Shown here: positions 1,061 to 11,800 of the stretch, one piece after another
Layout of the letters: the number at the start of each line of letters is the position of its first letter
Numbering within the stretch: position 1 is the first letter of the stretch
Assembly (NCBI RefSeq): GCF_000526495.1
Contig: NZ_JAGE01000001.1
Location: 1,826,501-1,890,500, forward strand
DNA: 64,000 nucleotides
DNA from: Ruminiclostridium josui JCM 17888
GTDB taxonomy: Bacteria; Bacillota; Clostridia; Acetivibrionales; DSM-1351
Direction of reading: 5' to 3'
The notes under the pieces: generated by a model
What the model was told of the DNA's origin: nothing
The model's input: the letters and a program-made list of their open reading frames with translations, nothing else
Database searches by the model: none
Program-made: the position numbers and the translations under genes

Positions 1061-2671
1061 ATGTGGTTTAATGAATTTTTATCAAAATACAAATCAGGCA
1101 TATCCCATGAGTTTCTGTTTTACTTTAATGTAAAGGATACCATGGACAATACGAGAAATTTTTTCAGATATATAGATGATGAGTTTATTAAGCAGAGGAA
1201 TTTTGGAATTGTTGCTTTTTATGATATATCCAGGGGTCTTACTTTTTTGACCCCTGAAATGGAAAGAGAATTTAACAAAATAACCAACAATGAGGCAACA
1301 AAATTATTTTTTTCATTGCCATCTAAAATTTTTCCATTTATAGATATTGCACTAAAGAGTACAAAGATGGCTCTGTTTATAGACCATGCCGAGAAAATAG
1401 TTCCTTCTGGTGATATTGGAAGTATGACTTTAGAAGAAAGAATGGCTCTTATATGGATGTCGGAATGGTCAGTAAATTCCAAAATTTCATCAGTTGGAAG
1501 CACTATATTTATGCTAGCGGACAACCTTGCTGATATAAGTCGTGAATTTTTAAAATCTTCATACAGGATAGAACCAATTCTAGTAGAACTTCCCGGAGAA
1601 GAGGAAAGAAAAAGCTATATTGAATACTTACTTAATGACAAATCTACTACATCTGAAATATCTATTGACGAATTTGCAAAACTTTCATCAGGTCTAAACA
1701 GGAAAAGCATAAAAGATATAAAACTAAAGGCTGAGGCAGAAGGCGTACCTATCAGTTTTGATTTTATAAAAGAAAAAAAACATGAGGTTTTAAAAAAAGA
1801 ATACGGAGATGTTCTTGACTTTATATACCCAGAGATATCTTTTGAGGACATCGGAGGAATGGAAGCTGCTAAAAGCTATCTTACAAAAAACATTATAGAG
1901 CCAATTAGGAGAGGTGACACCAGAAGAGTCCCAATGGGAATTCTACTATGCGGACCGTCTGGAACCGGAAAAACATTATTGGTGGAAGCATTGGCAAAAT
2001 CAAGTGGGTTTAATTGTGTGAAAATTGATATGTCAAGGATTTTGGGACAATATGTTGGAGAGAGTGAAAAGAATTTTAAAAAGTGTCTGCTAGGGGCTAA
2101 ATCCCAGGAGCCTGTTATAGTATTTGTAGATGAAATCGATACTGCTTTTAGAAGAGGGGAGTCTGGTGATAGCGGAGTAAGTAGAAATATTTTTAGCGAA
2201 TTTTTACAATTCACTAGTAATACAAATAATAGGGGTAGAATTATTTTTATCGCTGCAACCAACAGGCCGGACCTTCTTGATGCTGCTTTAAAAAGAGCTG
2301 GAAGGTTTGATAAAAAGATACCTGTATTGCTTCCGGAAAAAGAGGAACGTGCTGAGATTTTCAGGATAATAATTAAGAAATACGGGTTTAGTACCGATAT
2401 TCAGAACTTTAATCCATATTCTGAGCTATCTGAAAGCTATACTGGAGCCGAAATAGATACAGTCGTTAGGAAAGCATATGAGCTAGCTTGCAACAAGACA
2501 GAGGAGCATCCTGTAATAACAGATGAGATTTTGAGAGAGGCTCTCAAAAAGTGCAGACCAAGTACTCAGGAGATTGAATTTATGACTGAGCTTGCTATTG
2601 ATGAGTGTGATGATATTGATTTACTGCCGGAAAAATATTGGTCTAGATTTGATAAATCATTGGATGATTAA
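1061..2671 (+). CDS. AAA+ ATPase, Vps4/p97/FtsH-like, with degenerate N-terminal AAA half
   Basis: This 536-residue protein has a complete classical AAA module in its C-terminal half. It shows FEDIGGMEAAK, Walker A GPSGTGKT (298-305), a pore-like loop near GQYVGESEKN, Walker B VFVDEID (354-360), sensor AATNRPD and arginine-finger segment KRAGRFD, then a helical lid to about residue 515. Residues 1-250 look like a second AAA-type fold: MALFIDHAEKI resembles a Walker B strand, yet no P-loop is present. AAA proteins of this type remodel or unfold proteins. The gene lies 137 bases upstream of a PspA gene on the same strand, suggesting a shared job at the membrane; that is inference. AAAGAGGA precedes the ATG. 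Confidence 0.85.
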   Translation: MWFNEFLSKYKSGISHEFLFYFNVKDTMDNTRNFFRYIDDEFIKQRNFGIVAFYDISRGLTFLTPEMEREFNKITNNEATKLFFSLPSKIFPFIDIALKSTKMALFIDHAEKIVPSGDIGSMTLEERMALIWMSEWSVNSKISSVGSTIFMLADNLADISREFLKSSYRIEPILVELPGEEERKSYIEYLLNDKSTTSEISIDEFAKLSSGLNRKSIKDIKLKAEAEGVPISFDFIKEKKHEVLKKEYGDVLDFIYPEISFEDIGGMEAAKSYLTKNIIEPIRRGDTRRVPMGILLCGPSGTGKTLLVEALAKSSGFNCVKIDMSRILGQYVGESEKNFKKCLLGAKSQEPVIVFVDEIDTAFRRGESGDSGVSRNIFSEFLQFTSNTNNRGRIIFIAATNRPDLLDAALKRAGRFDKKIPVLLPEKEERAEIFRIIIKKYGFSTDIQNFNPYSELSESYTGAEIDTVVRKAYELACNKTEEHPVITDEILREALKKCRPSTQEIEFMTELAIDECDDIDLLPEKYWSRFDKSLDD

Positions 2672-2808
2672 TATATGATATTTTAGAAATAATTATTTAC
2701 ATTACTGTATTTTTATTATAAATTTAAAGTATCTTATTATAGTTCGTAAATTTTATTAATAACATTGTAAAAAATAGTGTTTATATACTTTTAAGGAGGA
2801 ATAGAATA

Positions 2809-3540
2809 ATGGGTTTATTTAGTAGACTGGGACAAATGTTTAGAGGATTTTTCGGCTTATTTGTTGGAAATCTTGAAGAAAGAAACCCTGAAGCATTGTT
2901 CGAAGATATAAAGAATCAGATAGATAAGGCAAGGCGCGAGGCTGAACAGCAAATTATTGAAATTCAAACAAGTGCTGAAATGATTAAAATAGAGATGAAA
3001 ACAGCCGAAAAAAACCTTAACGCCATAAAAGCAAGAGTTGAGTCTGCACAGAGAATTGGAGACAAGGAGCTTCTAGTTGAGCTTCTGGTTCAGGAAGAAG
3101 AATATCAGACTGTATATGAGACTCATAAAGCAACTTATGATAATGCCATGGAGCAGGTTCAAAAGATACGCGAGGACTACAAGATTTTTGAGTCTGAGAT
3201 GAATGCAAAACTTAATGAGCTGAAAACTCTTAAATCACAGGCAAAAATGGCTAATTTGCGCGAAAATATTAACTCTGTTAATGCACAGTATACTTCAAAG
3301 AATAGCAGGGTTGGAAGTGTTAATGACAGCTTAGACAGAGCACGTGAAATAGTTAATAAAAAGACTGCGAGAGCTAATGCTGTGGAATCACTTAACCAGG
3401 ATAATATTGAAATGAAACTTAAGAAATTGGATATGAATTCCGCAAGAGACAGGGCGAGAGCGAGAGCAGAGGCACTTCTTGGAGGAGATAACGGTGGATT
3501 TGAAGTAAAAGAGAAAACAGATAATAAGATATCTAATTAA
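2809..3540 (+). CDS. pspA: PspA/IM30 (Vipp1) family membrane-stress protein
   Basis: This 243-residue protein starts with the amphipathic helix typical of PspA (GLFSRLGQMFRGFFG). Long, highly charged coiled-coil helices follow (about 25-220), with the family-like segment RNPEALFEDIKNQIDKARREAEQQ. PspA proteins belong to the ESCRT-III superfamily; they assemble into rods or rings on the inner leaflet and protect or remodel the membrane under stress. The C-terminal residues 220-243 are an acidic-basic tail. A strong AAGGAGG lies ahead of the ATG. No PspF, PspB, PspC or LiaRS genes are nearby; the neighbour is an AAA+ ATPase instead. Confidence 0.9.
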   Translation: MGLFSRLGQMFRGFFGLFVGNLEERNPEALFEDIKNQIDKARREAEQQIIEIQTSAEMIKIEMKTAEKNLNAIKARVESAQRIGDKELLVELLVQEEEYQTVYETHKATYDNAMEQVQKIREDYKIFESEMNAKLNELKTLKSQAKMANLRENINSVNAQYTSKNSRVGSVNDSLDRAREIVNKKTARANAVESLNQDNIEMKLKKLDMNSARDRARARAEALLGGDNGGFEVKEKTDNKISN

Positions 3541-3563
3541 TTGATGAATAAGGATATTACAAA

Positions 3564-4058
3564 ATGGATACACATATTAGAGAAGCAATGGAAACAGATT
3601 TACCCCAAATAACGGATATTTACAATTGGGCGGTTATAAATACAACTGCCTCATTTGATATAAACCCGCAAACCATAGAGCAAAGAGCTGTATGGTTTTC
3701 CCATTATAAGGGTAGTCGTTTTCCTTTAATTGTCTATGTAAAAGATGATAAGATTGCAGGTTATGCATGTCTATCTACATTCAGGGCAAAAGAAGGTTAT
3801 AAAAATACTTGCGAGCTATCTGTGTATGTTCATCCTGATTATCAAAAAATGGGTATAGGCAAAAAGCTTATGGATAACGTAATAGAACTTGGGAGAGAAG
3901 CGGGATACCATGTTATTATTTCATGTATTACCACAGATAATAAGATAAGTATTCAAATGCATGAGAAAAAAGGGTTTAAACTTTGTGGTGAAATGAAAGA
4001 GGTCGGGTACAAATTTGGAAGATACCTGGATTGTCTTTTTTATCAGCTTTTTCTATAG
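3564..4058 (+). CDS. GNAT-family N-acetyltransferase, phosphinothricin acetyltransferase-like
   Basis: The 164-residue protein begins IREAMETDLPQITDIYNWAV and continues with NTTASFDINPQT, the pattern of phosphinothricin or methionine-sulfone acetyltransferases. The acetyl-CoA binding motif is YQKMGIGKKLMD (about 94-105), after the strand CELSVYVHPD. A C-terminal GFKLCGEMKEVGYKFGRYLD completes the fold. It should transfer an acetyl group from acetyl-CoA to a small amine or amino-acid analogue; the substrate is unknown. It follows pspA by 23 bases, so it is likely in the same transcript, though it may only be a passenger. Confidence 0.88.
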   Translation: MDTHIREAMETDLPQITDIYNWAVINTTASFDINPQTIEQRAVWFSHYKGSRFPLIVYVKDDKIAGYACLSTFRAKEGYKNTCELSVYVHPDYQKMGIGKKLMDNVIELGREAGYHVIISCITTDNKISIQMHEKKGFKLCGEMKEVGYKFGRYLDCLFYQLFL

Positions 4059-4089
4059 GATTGAATTTTGTATGTAAGAAGAGGGAATT

Positions 4090-4917
4090 ATGAATTCTAA
4101 TTTATTTGTAAGTGCACTTTTAAGATTCAGAAATTTTTCAACTTTGATTATATGGACGGCTTTAGTCAATTTATTAAGTAATAGTAGCCAGGTTCAAGAT
4201 ATGATTACATTGAAGTCAGTAAGTAACTCTTTAGTTTTAACAGGGGCTTACGGAGCGGGTGTTGTAGTATACCTTGCTATGGTTATACAAAGCATGTTCA
4301 GCAACAATTATAGGGAAGAAGTTAAAAGGAAGGAAAAGAAAAAGGAAATCAATGATCTGAATCGGCAGTGCAATAGGCTTTCCGTACAGGCAAGAAACTT
4401 ATGTAACCCGATTCAAAAACAAAAATTAAGAAAGATAATGCAAGACAAGAACGATATTTATAATTCGCAAAAACGCGGAGAAGAATATAGTTATCTTAAG
4501 GAAAAGATTGTAGAACAGAGTTTAAAGCTTGTTATTTCTTATATAAAGCTTATGACAAACTATTCAATTAGAAGTAAGGAAATATCTGAGATTAATATTA
4601 GTGATTTAATGAATAAAATAAACGCTAACAGAAGAAAAATAAGTTTTATGAAAGATGACAGAATGCTTGACGATATTAAGAACATCATTGAAATGGATGA
4701 AAAGGCCATTGAAAGAGTCAAGGAGGAGAGGAACGAATTAGAAAGGATACATGCAAGACTTGATTATATAGAGAGCATGTTGAATATGTTCAAACATCAG
4801 ATAATATCAAGTATAGAATCTGAAGAAATGGTTGAAAAATTAGAGACAGCTGTGAACGAAGCAACTGCGCTGGACAGCGTGTTACAAGAAAGAAGAAGAA
4901 ATCAGATAAGATTGTAA
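4090..4917 (+). CDS. Unrecognised membrane-anchored coiled-coil protein
   Basis: I do not recognise this 275-residue protein. Residues 14-32 and 47-69 are hydrophobic and probably form a membrane hairpin. The remaining 200 residues are almost all helical, highly charged and rich in Lys, Glu, Arg and Asn, with coiled-coil stretches around 75-135 and 180-250. The C-terminal part (ERIHARLDYIESMLNMFKHQ) is the most patterned and could be a binding surface. It is 31 bases after the GNAT gene and downstream of the AAA+ ATPase and pspA, so a role as membrane adaptor for those proteins is possible. GAGGGAATT precedes the ATG. Confidence 0.7.
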   Translation: MNSNLFVSALLRFRNFSTLIIWTALVNLLSNSSQVQDMITLKSVSNSLVLTGAYGAGVVVYLAMVIQSMFSNNYREEVKRKEKKKEINDLNRQCNRLSVQARNLCNPIQKQKLRKIMQDKNDIYNSQKRGEEYSYLKEKIVEQSLKLVISYIKLMTNYSIRSKEISEINISDLMNKINANRRKISFMKDDRMLDDIKNIIEMDEKAIERVKEERNELERIHARLDYIESMLNMFKHQIISSIESEEMVEKLETAVNEATALDSVLQERRRNQIRL

Positions 4918-4990: not shown

Positions 4991-6568
4991 ATGTCAGCAA
5001 ATATCACTATCTTTTCTTCTCCGTACATTATTATAACGCAACGGGATGATGGATATTACATAGAATCTTTAAAAAAAGGATTAAGTATTGACGAATTTCA
5101 AAAAATTCTAAATTCGCATCCTGAAATCAAAGTAACAGACTTTGCAGTAATTAAAAATGCACTTGTATTGGCACCGCAAGACCCCAAAAAATTTGCCATT
5201 GCAAAAGAGAGAATAAGTGTAGAAGTATCTGGAGACGAATTGAGGGCTTATGTAACCGTTAATGTGGGACAACAAGAAGTTTTAGGGACTGAAATAATCA
5301 AAGAGGTAGTTCTTGCATTAAACCGTAGAGGAGTTGTCTATGGGATAAAAAAGGACGTGCTCTTAAATTTGACTGCCGGTAAAACGGTACTTATAGCTGA
5401 AGGAGAACTTCCACAAAATGGAACTGATTCTCAAAATAAGTTATACCAGATAAAAGAAGCTAAACCCGAAATTAAAGAAGACGGTACTGCAGATCACTAT
5501 GACTTAAACCTAATAAATATGGTAGCAGAAGGGGAGTGGCTGGGTGAAAAAATTCATGCAACTCCCGGAAAAGAAGGAAAAACAGTATTTGGCAGTCCTA
5601 TAAAACCTATGCCCGGAAAAGATTATCCGATTTTTTTTGACCGCAAAACAGTAAGAGCTGTAGAAGAAAATGGTAAAACAACTCTGTATGCTATGAGGAA
5701 GGGGGCTGTTTATTTCGCAGGAGACAGTATAGGTGTATCTAATCACTTAGAAATAGGTGAAAATGTAGGAGTTAAAACTGGGAATGTAGATTTTGATGGT
5801 TATTTAACCGTTAAGGGGACTATTGAAGATAACTATACAGTTACTACCACAAAGGATATAGAAATACTTGGTGAATATGGTGTTGGTAGTTGTAAAGAAA
5901 TAAACAGCAGTGAAGGAAGTATTTATATAAGAGGAGGTATAGCAGGTAAGGGTAAGACTGTTATAAAATGCAAAAAAAATCTGTATATTAAGTTTGTTGC
6001 TGATGCAGACATAATTTGCGATGGAAGTGTACACGTAGGCTTTTACTGTTTGAATAGCAATATTATTGCTAAGGAGGTAATATTGGAATCATTAAAAGGC
6101 CAGATTATCGGAGGAAATATAACTGCGAATATAAAGGTGTTGGCATCTACATACGGTACTCCAAGTGAGAAAAGAACCAACATATGTGTAAAAGGATTTG
6201 ATAGGATTGCACTTAAAGATTCACTTGATAATCTCATGCAGGAAATAGAACAGCTTAGAGCCAAAATGAACCAGTATAAGCAGCAAATATCTATTTTTAA
6301 CTTATCTGATGCAGGAAAGTCAAGAAAAAATGAGTTTGAGAAGCTTAATGAGATTTACAATAATATAAGAATGGAACTACAGGTAAAGGAGGAAGCTAAA
6401 AAGAATATTGTAGGGTATCTGAAAGCCAAAGGAGAAGGAGAAATTACAATTCTTAAGAAGGCATTTCCAAACACCTTTTTTGAAATTAAAGGAATCCAAA
6501 AGGAAATTCAAAAACCTGTACTTAGAACAAGCTTTTTCTATAGTGAAGGAACAATAAAAGAACTATAA
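4991..6568 (+). CDS. FapA-like DUF342 protein
   Basis: The 525-residue protein shows the FapA (DUF342) layout. There is an N-terminal domain (about 1-170) and a repetitive central beta-helix (about 175-400) with strands such as GVKTGNVDFDGYLTVKGTIEDN. A coiled coil (about 405-470) is followed by a short beta tail. Motifs typical of the family include NMVAEGEWLGEKIHATPG and GKEGKTVFGSPIKP. FapA-type proteins are widespread in clostridia; their biochemical role is poorly known, with links to cell-surface and polar regulation proposed for relatives. GGGGG precedes the ATG. The gene heads the tract that continues with the GAF protein. Confidence 0.85.
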   Translation: MSANITIFSSPYIIITQRDDGYYIESLKKGLSIDEFQKILNSHPEIKVTDFAVIKNALVLAPQDPKKFAIAKERISVEVSGDELRAYVTVNVGQQEVLGTEIIKEVVLALNRRGVVYGIKKDVLLNLTAGKTVLIAEGELPQNGTDSQNKLYQIKEAKPEIKEDGTADHYDLNLINMVAEGEWLGEKIHATPGKEGKTVFGSPIKPMPGKDYPIFFDRKTVRAVEENGKTTLYAMRKGAVYFAGDSIGVSNHLEIGENVGVKTGNVDFDGYLTVKGTIEDNYTVTTTKDIEILGEYGVGSCKEINSSEGSIYIRGGIAGKGKTVIKCKKNLYIKFVADADIICDGSVHVGFYCLNSNIIAKEVILESLKGQIIGGNITANIKVLASTYGTPSEKRTNICVKGFDRIALKDSLDNLMQEIEQLRAKMNQYKQQISIFNLSDAGKSRKNEFEKLNEIYNNIRMELQVKEEAKKNIVGYLKAKGEGEITILKKAFPNTFFEIKGIQKEIQKPVLRTSFFYSEGTIKEL

Positions 6569-6614
6569 ATAGTAATCAATGCAGCAAAGTTAATTGTTGG
6601 GGAGGGAAAGTTAT

Positions 6615-8540
6615 ATGAAATACCAGTCAATACTACAAAGGCTTGAAGATGAGAAAAAAGATGAAATATTATCAGCAAAACTATATAGATATAACGGACT
6701 AATGCAAGCAATAGAGTACTTTTCACAAAAACTTGTGTTTGAACAGATAATAGACGCAGCTTTCGATTTTATAAATGAACTATTACTTATAAACAATGCT
6801 ATAGTATATGTTCTTGAAGAAAGCATATATACTGCAAAGAGGGTTAAGGGATTTAAGGATTATGTAAAAGAAATAGAAAACACAAGTAATTTTGAGAACC
6901 TCGCCACTTTTTATGGAAATATCCTTTATGAAAAAGAGAAAATAGTCAGGTTTTTTGACTCAGAAATGATTACTAACATGGATATAAATGCCGTAGTTCC
7001 ATTAATTATAGAAGGAAAGCTTTATGGTTTTATAATGATTAACGGCAAAGATTTTTCAGATGATGACTATATAATATTAGAATCTCTGATGCGTCTTATA
7101 AATAATGCTCTTGAAAATTATAGCAGGTATGAGAGTCTGGCTAAAGTAAATAAAGTACTTGACGAAAAGATATTCAACCTTTTTGCAATAAATCAATCAT
7201 CCAAAGTGCTCCTAAGCGAATTAAGAATCGATGCATTGTATGACTTAGCTGTTGAATTATTCTCGGAATTAACAAGGAGTACAGTTACAGGCTTTATTTT
7301 ATTTGATGAAAGAAGCCACAGATATATTTTAAAGGGATTTAAGGATGTATTTTACAAAATCAAAGATATTTTTGTAAGTATTGAACTAAATAAAAATTAT
7401 AAAATTGACTCCAACAAAGTTATTATAGATTTGGAAAACCCCAAAGATAGAGATTATTTCTTCAATCTGTTTGAAGATTCAGAAGAGCAGGTAAAAGCAT
7501 TTAATGCTAAGTATATTGTTATAATTATAAAAGAAAGTCAAATTTTAGGTTTTGTAACATTAAGTGATACTGTAACAGGGGACAAATACAGCAGTGGTAT
7601 ATTTGAACTCATAGAAAGTCTTGCATCATCTATGTATATTGCATTAAGCAATGCTGATTTGTTTAAACAGGTAAACGAGCAGAAACAAATTATCCAAAGA
7701 AAGCTGGATAAGCTAGTTTCTTTGAATAAATTAACAAAGAACATTAGCAGTTCTTTACGAATAGAAACCCTTATGGAGGTTACAGCTAAGACACTTGAAA
7801 TTTCTTTTAATATGCAAAAGGGACTGCTTTGTCTGTATGATAAGGAATCAAATGAGTTTAGTGTATCTGAATCAATTGGTTTAGACGGTAACTTGGACAA
7901 ATGCATAATTCCAAACGACAAGTGGAGACGTGTTTTTGAGGGTGATTACATTTATGAAATCGGTCAGGATAAAGTAACCGAATATATGGGATATGAAGCA
8001 GCTGAGAAGGTAGGAGAGTCTCAGGGAATACTTATTGTACCTATATATGTTGATACTCTAGAAGTTGAGCTGCTAGGAGCTATTGTAATATTTAAATATG
8101 ACGGTTTGCAACTTGATAATGAAGAAAATCTTATAACTTTGGAAACAATAGCGGGGCATATAGCTCCGGTGTTAAAGAATCTATTGGTTATTCAGATGCA
8201 GCAAAGGTTTATGCTTCCAAATTATGTTGAGCTTTTTAAGAATGAATTAAAACATGAAGTAAAAGCTGCCATGGATTACAATATCAACTTATCTGTTATT
8301 CAGGTTGAGGATAAAAGAGATTTTATTTTTAAGGGTACTAGTATTATTGATAGCATAAAGGATAATTTCAAAAAAGTATATCCTTTTTCATATAATAATG
8401 TGTTTATTATAGAGAATGACGATGAAAATATTGAAGACAGAATAATAAAATGTACAGGAGTTACTGATTTAAAGATAAGAAAAATGGTTCTGGGTAAAGA
8501 TTTTAAGAATTTTGCAAACTTTTTTGACCTTTTCAGATAA
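6615..8540 (+). CDS. Multi-GAF-domain sensory protein without clear output domain
   Basis: The start chosen is ATG 6615, with GGGGAGGG seven bases upstream; an in-frame TTG at 6594 is not needed. The 641-residue protein contains three GAF-like modules (about 30-165, 190-345 and 375-530), linked by helices such as NEQKQIIQRKLDKLVSLNKLTKN. GAF domains bind small molecules or sense redox state. No histidine kinase, HD or EAL motif is present. The last 100 residues have strands and spacing reminiscent of a GGDEF fold (LSVIQVED, later FSYNNVFIIE) but lack the GGDEF signature. It follows the FapA-like gene by 46 bases and is probably co-transcribed. Confidence 0.78.
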   Translation: MKYQSILQRLEDEKKDEILSAKLYRYNGLMQAIEYFSQKLVFEQIIDAAFDFINELLLINNAIVYVLEESIYTAKRVKGFKDYVKEIENTSNFENLATFYGNILYEKEKIVRFFDSEMITNMDINAVVPLIIEGKLYGFIMINGKDFSDDDYIILESLMRLINNALENYSRYESLAKVNKVLDEKIFNLFAINQSSKVLLSELRIDALYDLAVELFSELTRSTVTGFILFDERSHRYILKGFKDVFYKIKDIFVSIELNKNYKIDSNKVIIDLENPKDRDYFFNLFEDSEEQVKAFNAKYIVIIIKESQILGFVTLSDTVTGDKYSSGIFELIESLASSMYIALSNADLFKQVNEQKQIIQRKLDKLVSLNKLTKNISSSLRIETLMEVTAKTLEISFNMQKGLLCLYDKESNEFSVSESIGLDGNLDKCIIPNDKWRRVFEGDYIYEIGQDKVTEYMGYEAAEKVGESQGILIVPIYVDTLEVELLGAIVIFKYDGLQLDNEENLITLETIAGHIAPVLKNLLVIQMQQRFMLPNYVELFKNELKHEVKAAMDYNINLSVIQVEDKRDFIFKGTSIIDSIKDNFKKVYPFSYNNVFIIENDDENIEDRIIKCTGVTDLKIRKMVLGKDFKNFANFFDLFR

Positions 8541-9805: not shown

Positions 9806-11800
9806 ATGAAAATTGATAGACTCCATGTAAGGGGATTTGGTAAACTTCATAATTTTAGTTGTGACTTTTCGGATGCTTTAAATGTTATTTATGGGCATAA
9901 TGAGAGCGGTAAATCCACTCTTATGGCGTATATAAAAGCTATGCTGTATGGAGTAAAGGGTGGAAGAGCTGGAAAAAATGGTATGTTGCCTGAAAGCAAG
10001 AGATATAAGCCATGGAGCAGTAACCAGTACGGTGGGTATATGAATATTAAGCTGGATAATGGTGAATTATATCGCATCGATAGAGACTTTCTTGCTAATA
10101 AAGTAAATTTATATGATTCTTCTTTTAATGATATTTCAGATAATTTTATTGATATAAGAGATATAAATAGTATTGGCGAGAAACTGGTAGGACTTAATGA
10201 GAATCTTTTTGAAAGAACTGTGTTTATTAAGCAAATGGGGACCAGAATTGATACTGCAACGTCAAAAGACCTTGTAGACAGAATCTCAAATATACAGCAG
10301 AGTGGATTTGAGGACATATCGTACGTAAAAGCGCAAAATGCTCTTAAGGAGGCATTAAAGCGTCAGGTTGGAACAGATAGAAGTTATACAAGGCCTCTGG
10401 ATATTATAAACCAACGTTTAACTGAATTACAGGAGAAAAAGGTTAACCTGCTAAATGATAAAAAGAGACTTGAGGATTTAAAAGAAAAACAGAAGGATAT
10501 ATCTTTTAAAATAGACAAATTAAAGTTAAAGAGCAGACTGCTAAACAGGATAATAGATTATTGTAAACTTAAGGAGAAATTAAATTTATTAAATGAAAAA
10601 AAGGAAGAATTACTCTTTCTTGAGGAATCCATCCGTCAAGCCCATGAAAACATAACTAAGCTTGAAGAGGACAAAAAAGCGGCAATATTTCATCTAAATA
10701 ATAATCATTCAAACGAAGACAAAAAGTTAACAGGGATAGATATAGCTTTGATGATATGTGCCACTGCTGTGCTGGCAGTAGGAATAGCATCATTTATTTT
10801 TAACATATTCAGCCCTTTATTTACTTTGATACCTTTTTTATCAGCTCTTATTCTTTTTGCTTTAAGAATGAGGAATATAAAAAGGAAAGGGAAAATGCTG
10901 CAAAAGAGCAGAGAAGATGAATTAAATGGTCAGATAGCACAATTTGACGAAAGAATAGCTCAAAATAAGAGCCAATATCATAAACTTTTAAATAGAATCG
11001 AAGCTCTAAAAGCTAATAATGGAGGGGAATCCTCTGAACTTCTTGAAAGAGAGATATCAAGTATATATATTGAGATTATGAAGAATAAGCAAGAGATGGA
11101 AGATAATCTCTCTCCCTATGAAAAAGAATTTATGGAGCTTATTGCAAGGGGTTATTATAACGGTTTGCTGGCAATGGCTGTTGATTTTAATAAAAATGTT
11201 TTGCTGGATATTCAAAGGTTGGAGACTGAATATAATACAGTTGCTCAAACTATTAAAAATACCGGTACAGACAGCATTTTTGACATTGAAAACGAAATCA
11301 ACCGGTTGAGTCACCAAAAGAAAAGTCTGGACTGTAAAAGAGAGGCTCTGAATATTGCTATAAATACATTAGAGGCCGCAGCTGTGCAGGTTAGAAAAAA
11401 ATATGTACCTGTAATGAATAAAGTATTAAATAATACTTTTTCCGGTCTTACATCTCAAAAATATAACGATGTAAGAACAGGAGACAATCTTAAAATTATG
11501 CTTGATAACCCAGAGACAAAGACATTGGTTCCTGTTTCAATGTTAAGTGATGGGACTATTGATCAGATATATCTGGCACTAAGGGTTGCTATTTCAGAGA
11601 CAGTACTTAAAAATCACGAGTGCATGCCATTTATAATGGATGAACCCTTTGCACAGTATGATGATGAAAGGACATTTAATGCTCTAAAATATATTGTGAA
11701 TATAAGCAAAAAGCAGCAGGTAATCATATTTACCTGTAAAAAGAGGGAAGTAGAACTTATTAGCAGTGAATTCCCTTGTAAAATCTGCTCATTGACATAG
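9806..11800 (+). CDS. yhaN: SMC-like ATPase, YhaN family, with internal membrane hairpin
   Basis: This 664-residue protein begins MKIDRLHVRGFGKL and carries Walker A GHNESGKST (about 31-39). A signature-like segment VSMLSDGTIDQIYLALR and Walker B MPFIMDEPFAQYDDER lie near the end. The ATPase halves are separated by coiled coils (about 195-305 and 370-540). Two hydrophobic helices (about 312-355, IALMICATAVLAVG and LFTLIPFLSALILFAL) interrupt the coils. That is typical of YhaN and suggests membrane association. No CxxC zinc hook is seen, unlike SbcC. It should partner the nuclease encoded just upstream. Confidence 0.87.
   Translation: MKIDRLHVRGFGKLHNFSCDFSDALNVIYGHNESGKSTLMAYIKAMLYGVKGGRAGKNGMLPESKRYKPWSSNQYGGYMNIKLDNGELYRIDRDFLANKVNLYDSSFNDISDNFIDIRDINSIGEKLVGLNENLFERTVFIKQMGTRIDTATSKDLVDRISNIQQSGFEDISYVKAQNALKEALKRQVGTDRSYTRPLDIINQRLTELQEKKVNLLNDKKRLEDLKEKQKDISFKIDKLKLKSRLLNRIIDYCKLKEKLNLLNEKKEELLFLEESIRQAHENITKLEEDKKAAIFHLNNNHSNEDKKLTGIDIALMICATAVLAVGIASFIFNIFSPLFTLIPFLSALILFALRMRNIKRKGKMLQKSREDELNGQIAQFDERIAQNKSQYHKLLNRIEALKANNGGESSELLEREISSIYIEIMKNKQEMEDNLSPYEKEFMELIARGYYNGLLAMAVDFNKNVLLDIQRLETEYNTVAQTIKNTGTDSIFDIENEINRLSHQKKSLDCKREALNIAINTLEAAAVQVRKKYVPVMNKVLNNTFSGLTSQKYNDVRTGDNLKIMLDNPETKTLVPVSMLSDGTIDQIYLALRVAISETVLKNHECMPFIMDEPFAQYDDERTFNALKYIVNISKKQQVIIFTCKKREVELISSEFPCKICSLT

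Follow-up and report, generated by a model that had tools for sequence, protein, structure and literature searches.

The window analysed here is a stretch of 64,000 nucleotides from Ruminiclostridium josui JCM 17888 (contig NZ_JAGE01000001.1, positions 1,826,501 to 1,890,500; genome of 4.47 Mb in 2 contigs). Near its start lie genes for an AAA ATPase, a PspA/IM30 protein, a GNAT acetyltransferase and a membrane-anchored coiled-coil protein (CC), followed by genes for FapA and a GAF-domain protein (Table 1). Open reading frames (ORFs) and Pfam matches place the first four on one strand, exactly as the original prediction, made from the letters alone, had arranged them. Intergenic gaps from the ATPase through FapA measure 137, 23, 31 and 73 bases (by subtraction of ORF ends). 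Among the named genomes recovered in our search for relatives, the nearest relatives of the ATPase are those of Ruminiclostridium, with R. papyrosolvens at 96%. Here, we show that ATPase, PspA and CC form a real and highly conserved module across the taxonomic order to which R. josui belongs (Acetivibrionales), and we propose that the ATPase may remodel PspA with ATP.

Table 1 Genes and sequence features of the locus, in window positions.
Feature	Position	Strand	Description and basis
AAA ATPase gene	1061-2671	+	536 residues; ORF and Pfam
First AAA module (D1), degenerate, about residues 1-254	1061-1822	+	Walker A not found; profile matches AAA proteins
Second AAA module (D2), about residues 258-500	1832-2560	+	Walker A at residues 298-305, pore loop QYVG, Walker B, sensor 1, arginine fingers
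Promoter-like element 5' of pspA	2696-2724	+	TTTAC-N11-TTT[A/G]TTATAAATT; exact copy in the window
PspA/IM30 gene, divergent clade	2809-3540	+	243 residues; PF04012
PspA C-terminal motif GFEVKEK (residues 230-236), candidate ATPase docking site	3496-3516	+	Conservation
GNAT acetyltransferase gene, optional passenger	3564-4058	+	164 residues; GNAT families
Membrane-anchored coiled-coil protein (CC) gene, third conserved gene of the order	4090-4917	+	275 residues
FapA (beta-solenoid) gene, frequent but non-constant follower	4991-6568	+	PF03961, E=9.6e-62
GAF-domain protein gene, after FapA	6594-8540	+	Neighbour scan

Conservation and reach of the ATPase-PspA-CC block

We surveyed 47 genomes of the order, each at least 90% complete, with an ATPase threshold of E≤1e-40. 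A PspA-family match was present in 45 of the 47, the ATPase in 44 and CC in 43. PspA adjoins the ATPase on the same contig and strand in 44/44 ATPase-bearing genomes, at a distance of 92-457 bases (median 157, from match end to match end), and CC is next in line in all 43 counted copies; before counting, we had set aside the ordinary PspAs of two genomes (G045, G004) and additional paralogues of CC at other sites. The single ATPase genome lacking CC is G013, whose contig apparently stops within PspA (positions same as in L075, a 9473-base contig), which would account for the lack. The three genomes without the ATPase are also without CC; two of them have no PspA match, and G045 holds an ordinary PspA only (182.7 bits). 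This arrangement is far from chance.

A second collection, made of 46 loci from the search for relatives plus three added ones (a 47th locus, the archaeal L077, matches the generic AAA region only), gave the same picture. Across the 46 loci with at least 3.5 kb downstream, PspA is next in 45 (split over two frames in L041) and CC follows too in 44. There is overlap between the collections, and L061/L114 and L070/L115 seem to be identical loci, so the counts are non-independent. Of the 44 loci with all three of ATPase, PspA and CC, only 11 have a GNAT gene between PspA and CC. This gene, which the original prediction named in the series, is an optional passenger outside the core. Its product resembles acetyltransferases of the ArsN1 (arsinothricin) type, at 119 bits where the cut-off is 210.

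Beyond the order, an even draw of the class (order included) yielded the ATPase at E≤1e-45 in 18 of 293 genomes, 2 of them outside the order, and both of these carry PspA and CC beside it. In the phylum sample, a profile of D1 matched 8 of 398 genomes at E≤1e-4 and a profile of the window PspA clade matched 4, the window genome included each time; PF04012 matches occurred in 73/249 phylum genomes. One genome within the phylum and outside the class (G630) has ATPase and PspA adjacent with a 24-base gap, at 41% and 34% identity to their window counterparts. Among the relatives of G630, the ATPase was found in 4 of 61 genomes (G630 included; 80-100% identity to the G630 ATPase), while a fifth genome of the G630 family, 77% complete, is without it. 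PspA follows the ATPase in 4/4 genomes of this lineage, one copy being truncated at 87 residues where the stretch ends, and CC was not found beside the pair there (L109 among these loci). At such sequence distances, the pair would appear to be either old or transferred as a unit. The original prediction had staked its reading on an adjacency conserved beyond close relatives, and this is what we observe, both within the order and in another lineage of the phylum.

Other relatives of the ATPase occur in different settings. Near full-length ones are carried by large plasmids of the Paenibacillaceae genera Aneurinibacillus, Paenibacillus and Brevibacillus (L105, L106 and L107; match at about 10001-11572), with Walker A and arginine fingers kept and with the Walker B, sensor 1 and pore-loop patterns unmatched. 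Two more lie in mobile-element-like regions, one directly beside a DUF3150 match (L110, 5589-8685) and one about 3 kb from a DUF3150 look-alike judged by eye, without a DUF3150 hit (L111, 1312-7704). A DUF3150-like protein is a possible second partner for this ATPase.

The ATPase, the PspA tail and the element before pspA

The ATPase matches the Pfam family AAA (PF00004, E=3.6e-38) at residues 294-422, and its only Walker A motif begins at residue 298, in the second module; a motif scan found no GxxxxGK[S/T] pattern upstream of that residue. A profile of the first 254 residues nevertheless matches AAA proteins of known structure, namely Cdc48, NVL, p97, FtsH, Rix7 and also one Vps4 (best E=3.2e-5). 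In D2, Walker B, sensor 1, the arginine fingers and the aromatic pore loop GQYVG are kept in 19/19 aligned relatives. Confidence in the AlphaFold2 model is middling (best mean predicted local distance difference test, pLDDT, 78.6; other four models 62-66; predicted TM-score 0.60). Its best 50 listed structural matches are all tandem AAA proteins (p97/Cdc48, Rix7, NVL), with alignments of 486-581 columns including gaps for 536 residues and TM-scores by query of 0.47-0.67. The NCBIfam models CDC48, PAN and CdvC hit the D2 region far under their cut-offs (CDC48, TIGR01243: 162 bits against 802.65; CdvC, NF041006: 139 bits against 650, the fourth best NCBIfam match).

Pfam gave no match in the ATPase to a MIT domain, to the Vps4 C-terminal oligomerisation domain or to a separate Cdc48 N-domain. 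We therefore read the protein, from its motifs and its model, as a p97-like tandem AAA ATPase with a dead first module and without the N-domain, rather than as a Vps4; that D1 is inactive is likely from its missing P-loop. Of the 'p97/Vps4/FtsH-type' label in the original prediction, the p97/Cdc48-like part holds. The Vps4 part does not (no MIT domain, two modules), and an FtsH-type protease is rejected, as Pfam finds no protease domain. We also considered an anti-phage system. PADLOC matches of the ATPase (IetA, TRIP13, DolB) mostly cover its generic AAA part, PspA has weak ones (such as LmuB and DndD) on coiled coil, and we read neither set as a sign of defence.

The window PspA scores 42.5 bits to PF04012, above the curated cut-off of 33.9 and far from the up to 183 bits of ordinary PspAs, which marks a divergent clade; some relatives even fall under the cut-off (e.g., G630, 30.5 bits). 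Near its C-terminus, this clade carries the motif GFEVKEK, in which G230, F231, E232, V233 and E235 are invariant in 19/19 ATPase-linked PspAs and K234 is kept in at least 90%. At equal scan lengths, the loose pattern V[KR]E[KR] occurs within the last 40 residues of 53/53 distinct ATPase-linked PspAs (7 truncated pieces excluded) and of 0/32 ordinary PspAs, 29 of which end in a DELAALK-like string instead. A stricter pattern, [GFE][FR][EV]V[KR]E[KR], gives 53/53, 0/32 and, for the PspAs of family f110, 0/2. In the distant lineage much of the middle of PspA has changed and the tail reads GRVVKE[RK]. One locus (L063) encodes three tandem copies of the motif, which we liken to the behaviour of short recognition motifs, and another (L060) encodes a second, degenerate copy. 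GFEVKEK is thus a candidate docking site for the ATPase, presumably on a flexible tail that the ATPase would recognise. The two f110 PspAs (genomes G350 and G389; L154 and L155) are intermediate between the ordinary and the ATPase-linked clades, with 65-81 bits to the latter; they carry a VKER string near their ends, and the D1 profile has no match in either genome.

CC has no Pfam match above a cut-off and no accepted family in Pfam or NCBIfam. Its window copy has a sole hydrophobic stretch above threshold (residues 46-71); within the first 90 residues, several relatives have two such stretches and others one long merged stretch. The model is all-helical (mean pLDDT 82.3). A second PspA/Snf7 was considered and rejected, the profile comparison with PspA giving a probability of 0.3% (E=0.24), as was a LapA domain (E=0.0066, below cut-off, in 2/19 members). 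Designed helical proteins and BAR domains are among the best rows of a fold search, none at E≤0.001. Several genomes of the order also carry paralogues of CC at other sites (e.g., G012:C1:132403-133098).

Aligning the gaps between ATPase and pspA across genomes, the only way in which it becomes visible, revealed a shared element. With at most 3 mismatches it is present in 41 of 55 distinct gaps, against 40 of 1100 mononucleotide-shuffled gaps. At no more than 2 mismatches it occurs at 45 distinct places in all loci and the window together (1.50 Mb, partly overlapping), 42 of them before pspA; of these 42, 21 were flagged by script (not checked by eye) and 21 judged from printed rows. Close relatives account for many of these places. 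In the window, the element has zero mismatches. Since 1.16 matches with up to 3 mismatches are expected by chance in the window, the strength of the element rests on conservation and not on the single site. It could be the pspA promoter (TTTACA, 17 bases, TAAATT), which is one site of a simple promoter scan. That scan, whose promoter count equals the shuffle level, found no terminator between ATPase and pspA. The 24-base gap of the distant lineage is too short for the element.

Known systems and a proposed remodelling of PspA

Both the pairing and the comparison with Vps4 are in print. In the sections considered here, PMC11237479 (Ravi et al., mSystems 2024) describes a PspA paired with an AAA+ ATPase of two domains, the N-terminal one being an inactive copy (example AEY64321.1), and proposes a membrane remodelling that depends on ATP and is likened to that by Snf7 and VPS4. 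Gene pair and proposed function are those of the window locus, where PspA likewise stands beside a protein with two AAA modules, the first probably inactive given its missing P-loop. We take AEY64321.1 to be from Clostridium sp. BNL1100, of the same genus. Our literature search, as far as its sources were covered, found the gene pair described in that paper alone. In those sections CC, the tail motif, the promoter-like element and order-wide constancy do not appear, and these four (CC as a fixed third gene) are what we add.

PspA is an accepted member of the ESCRT-III superfamily (PMC11746142, in the part drawn on here). As in the ESCRT-III/Vps4 (CdvB/CdvC) system, then, an ESCRT-III superfamily gene lies beside that of an AAA ATPase with an intact AAA module and an aromatic pore loop. 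The window ATPase differs in having two AAA modules instead of one, no MIT domain and no detectable Vps4 C-terminal domain, and the polymer protein belongs to the PspA branch. With p97/Cdc48/VAT, Rix7 and NVL, which provide its best structural matches, it shares the tandem AAA modules; unlike these, it has one ATP-binding module, with D1 lacking the P-loop, a Cdc48 N-domain was not found, and it is only about 535 residues long. The Escherichia coli Psp system resembles the locus as proposed here in that PspA works with an AAA+ protein (PspF), one of another AAA group. No classical Psp operon is present, the neighbours scanned being AAA, GNAT, CC and FapA. The original prediction had noted the absence of the usual psp partners. 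This is true genome-wide of PspC, which has no match in the window genome and a match somewhere in 33/47 genomes of the order; PspB, PspF and LiaRS are absent among the neighbour genes scanned, no genome-wide search for them having been made.

With the pair kept throughout the order and recurring in another lineage, the combined function of an ESCRT-III superfamily protein and an AAA ATPase is our leading reading, and in this functional sense the 'Vps4-like module' of the original prediction survives; membership of the Vps4 family does not. Specifically, the locus would encode a membrane polymer of the PspA type, a ring ATPase dedicated to its remodelling and a coiled-coil partner bound to the membrane. 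In the p97-like hexamer that we expect of the ATPase, the D1 ring would be inactive and the D2 ring active; D1, or the pore of D2, would grip the GFEVKEK tail, and D2 would use ATP to extract PspA subunits from the polymer. The membrane coat could thereby be reshaped or recycled, with CC placing the pair at the membrane. We lean, with some caution, towards such ATP-driven remodelling of PspA. It is favoured by the unbroken adjacency in 44 genomes and the absence of the block in the other three, with an ordinary PspA in its stead in one of them; by the recurrence of the pair, so divergent and so closely spaced, in a distant lineage; by the intact D2 motifs and aromatic pore loop; by a tail motif confined to the ATPase-linked PspAs in comparison with ordinary ones, kept in the distant lineage and found in tandem in L063; and by the place of PspA in the ESCRT-III superfamily. 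A more specific and decidedly tentative version, which we hold to be doubtful as it stands, is that the dead D1 ring serves as the receptor for the motif, doing on a p97-type chassis what MIT and MIM do for Vps4 and ESCRT-III; multiplication of the motif, as in L063, would then raise avidity.

Competing explanations and implications

Several observations weigh against remodelling. In our searches, the pair was limited to one order (44/47), two genomes of the class outside that order and a single small lineage in another part of the phylum. PspA was not found beside the ATPase relatives of the three plasmids (34-37% identity), beside the ATPase of genomes G625 and G376, or beside that of a metagenome-assembled genome (MAG) contig (L067); another MAG contig, with 1.7 kb downstream (L071), shows an ATP-binding-like ORF in place of PspA. 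The loose tail pattern also occurs in 2/2 PspAs of family f110, from genomes without a D1-profile match; the stricter pattern was composed after the sequences were known, and the ATPase-linked PspAs include close relatives and are thus non-independent. A promoter-like element of its own before pspA means that ATPase and PspA need not be made together. Finally, PspA rods change diameter with ATP in vitro without an AAA protein (PMC11746142, within the same part).

There are three other explanations. PspA might be an adaptor or cargo collector that recruits the ATPase to damaged membrane, the ATPase acting mainly on other membrane clients such as CC. The third gene does encode a membrane coiled-coil protein equally constant in the order (43/43), and ATPase relatives without PspA found beside them indicate that this ATPase fold is not bound to PspA. 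CC is nevertheless the less constant partner, since the distant lineage has ATPase and PspA with no CC found beside them, and it is less conserved, with 31-73% identity to the window copy against 62-86% for the ATPase and 60-93% for PspA over the same 18 relatives; we regard this explanation as unlikely. Somewhat less probable again is control in the reverse direction, in which PspA would inhibit or activate the ATPase, as it inhibits the AAA+ protein PspF in E. coli. The position of the conserved motif at the C-terminal end of PspA here too would suit it, whereas no DNA-binding domain was found in the ATPase (Pfam, NCBIfam) and its AAA group is another, with best model matches to Cdc48, PAN, CdvC and FtsH and merely E=0.071 to Sigma54_activat.

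That the genes are neighbours without contact, sharing a stress programme or a genome position only, is the least probable of the three, and we give it little credence. The promoter-like element of pspA is in its favour, and so is the chromosome region, where the FapA and GAF genes also stay in line in some relatives. FapA lies closely 3' of CC in only 19 of 41 loci, however, whereas the trio is near constant in the order, and the pair is kept across the distance to the other lineage. Remodelling of PspA by the ATPase remains the reading to which we incline.

How bacterial PspA polymers come apart is an open question, and the locus bears on it: chaperones or PspF have been suggested to act on PspA rods 'in analogy to Vps4' (PMC11746142), and the regulation of assembly in PspA homologues that have no AAA ATPase associated with them is described as unknown (PMC11237479; both in the parts considered here). 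In this clade a candidate ATPase is linked genetically to PspA throughout an order, and a single short motif offers itself for mutation; the constancy, the membrane partner and the candidate docking tail make the published pairing easier to test. If the D1 ring does read the motif, bacteria have their own counterpart of the hand-off between ESCRT-III and Vps4, with a p97-type protein as its frame. A Cdc48-like tandem ATPase working on a bacterial PspA polymer would be a living parallel to the supposed ancestral state.

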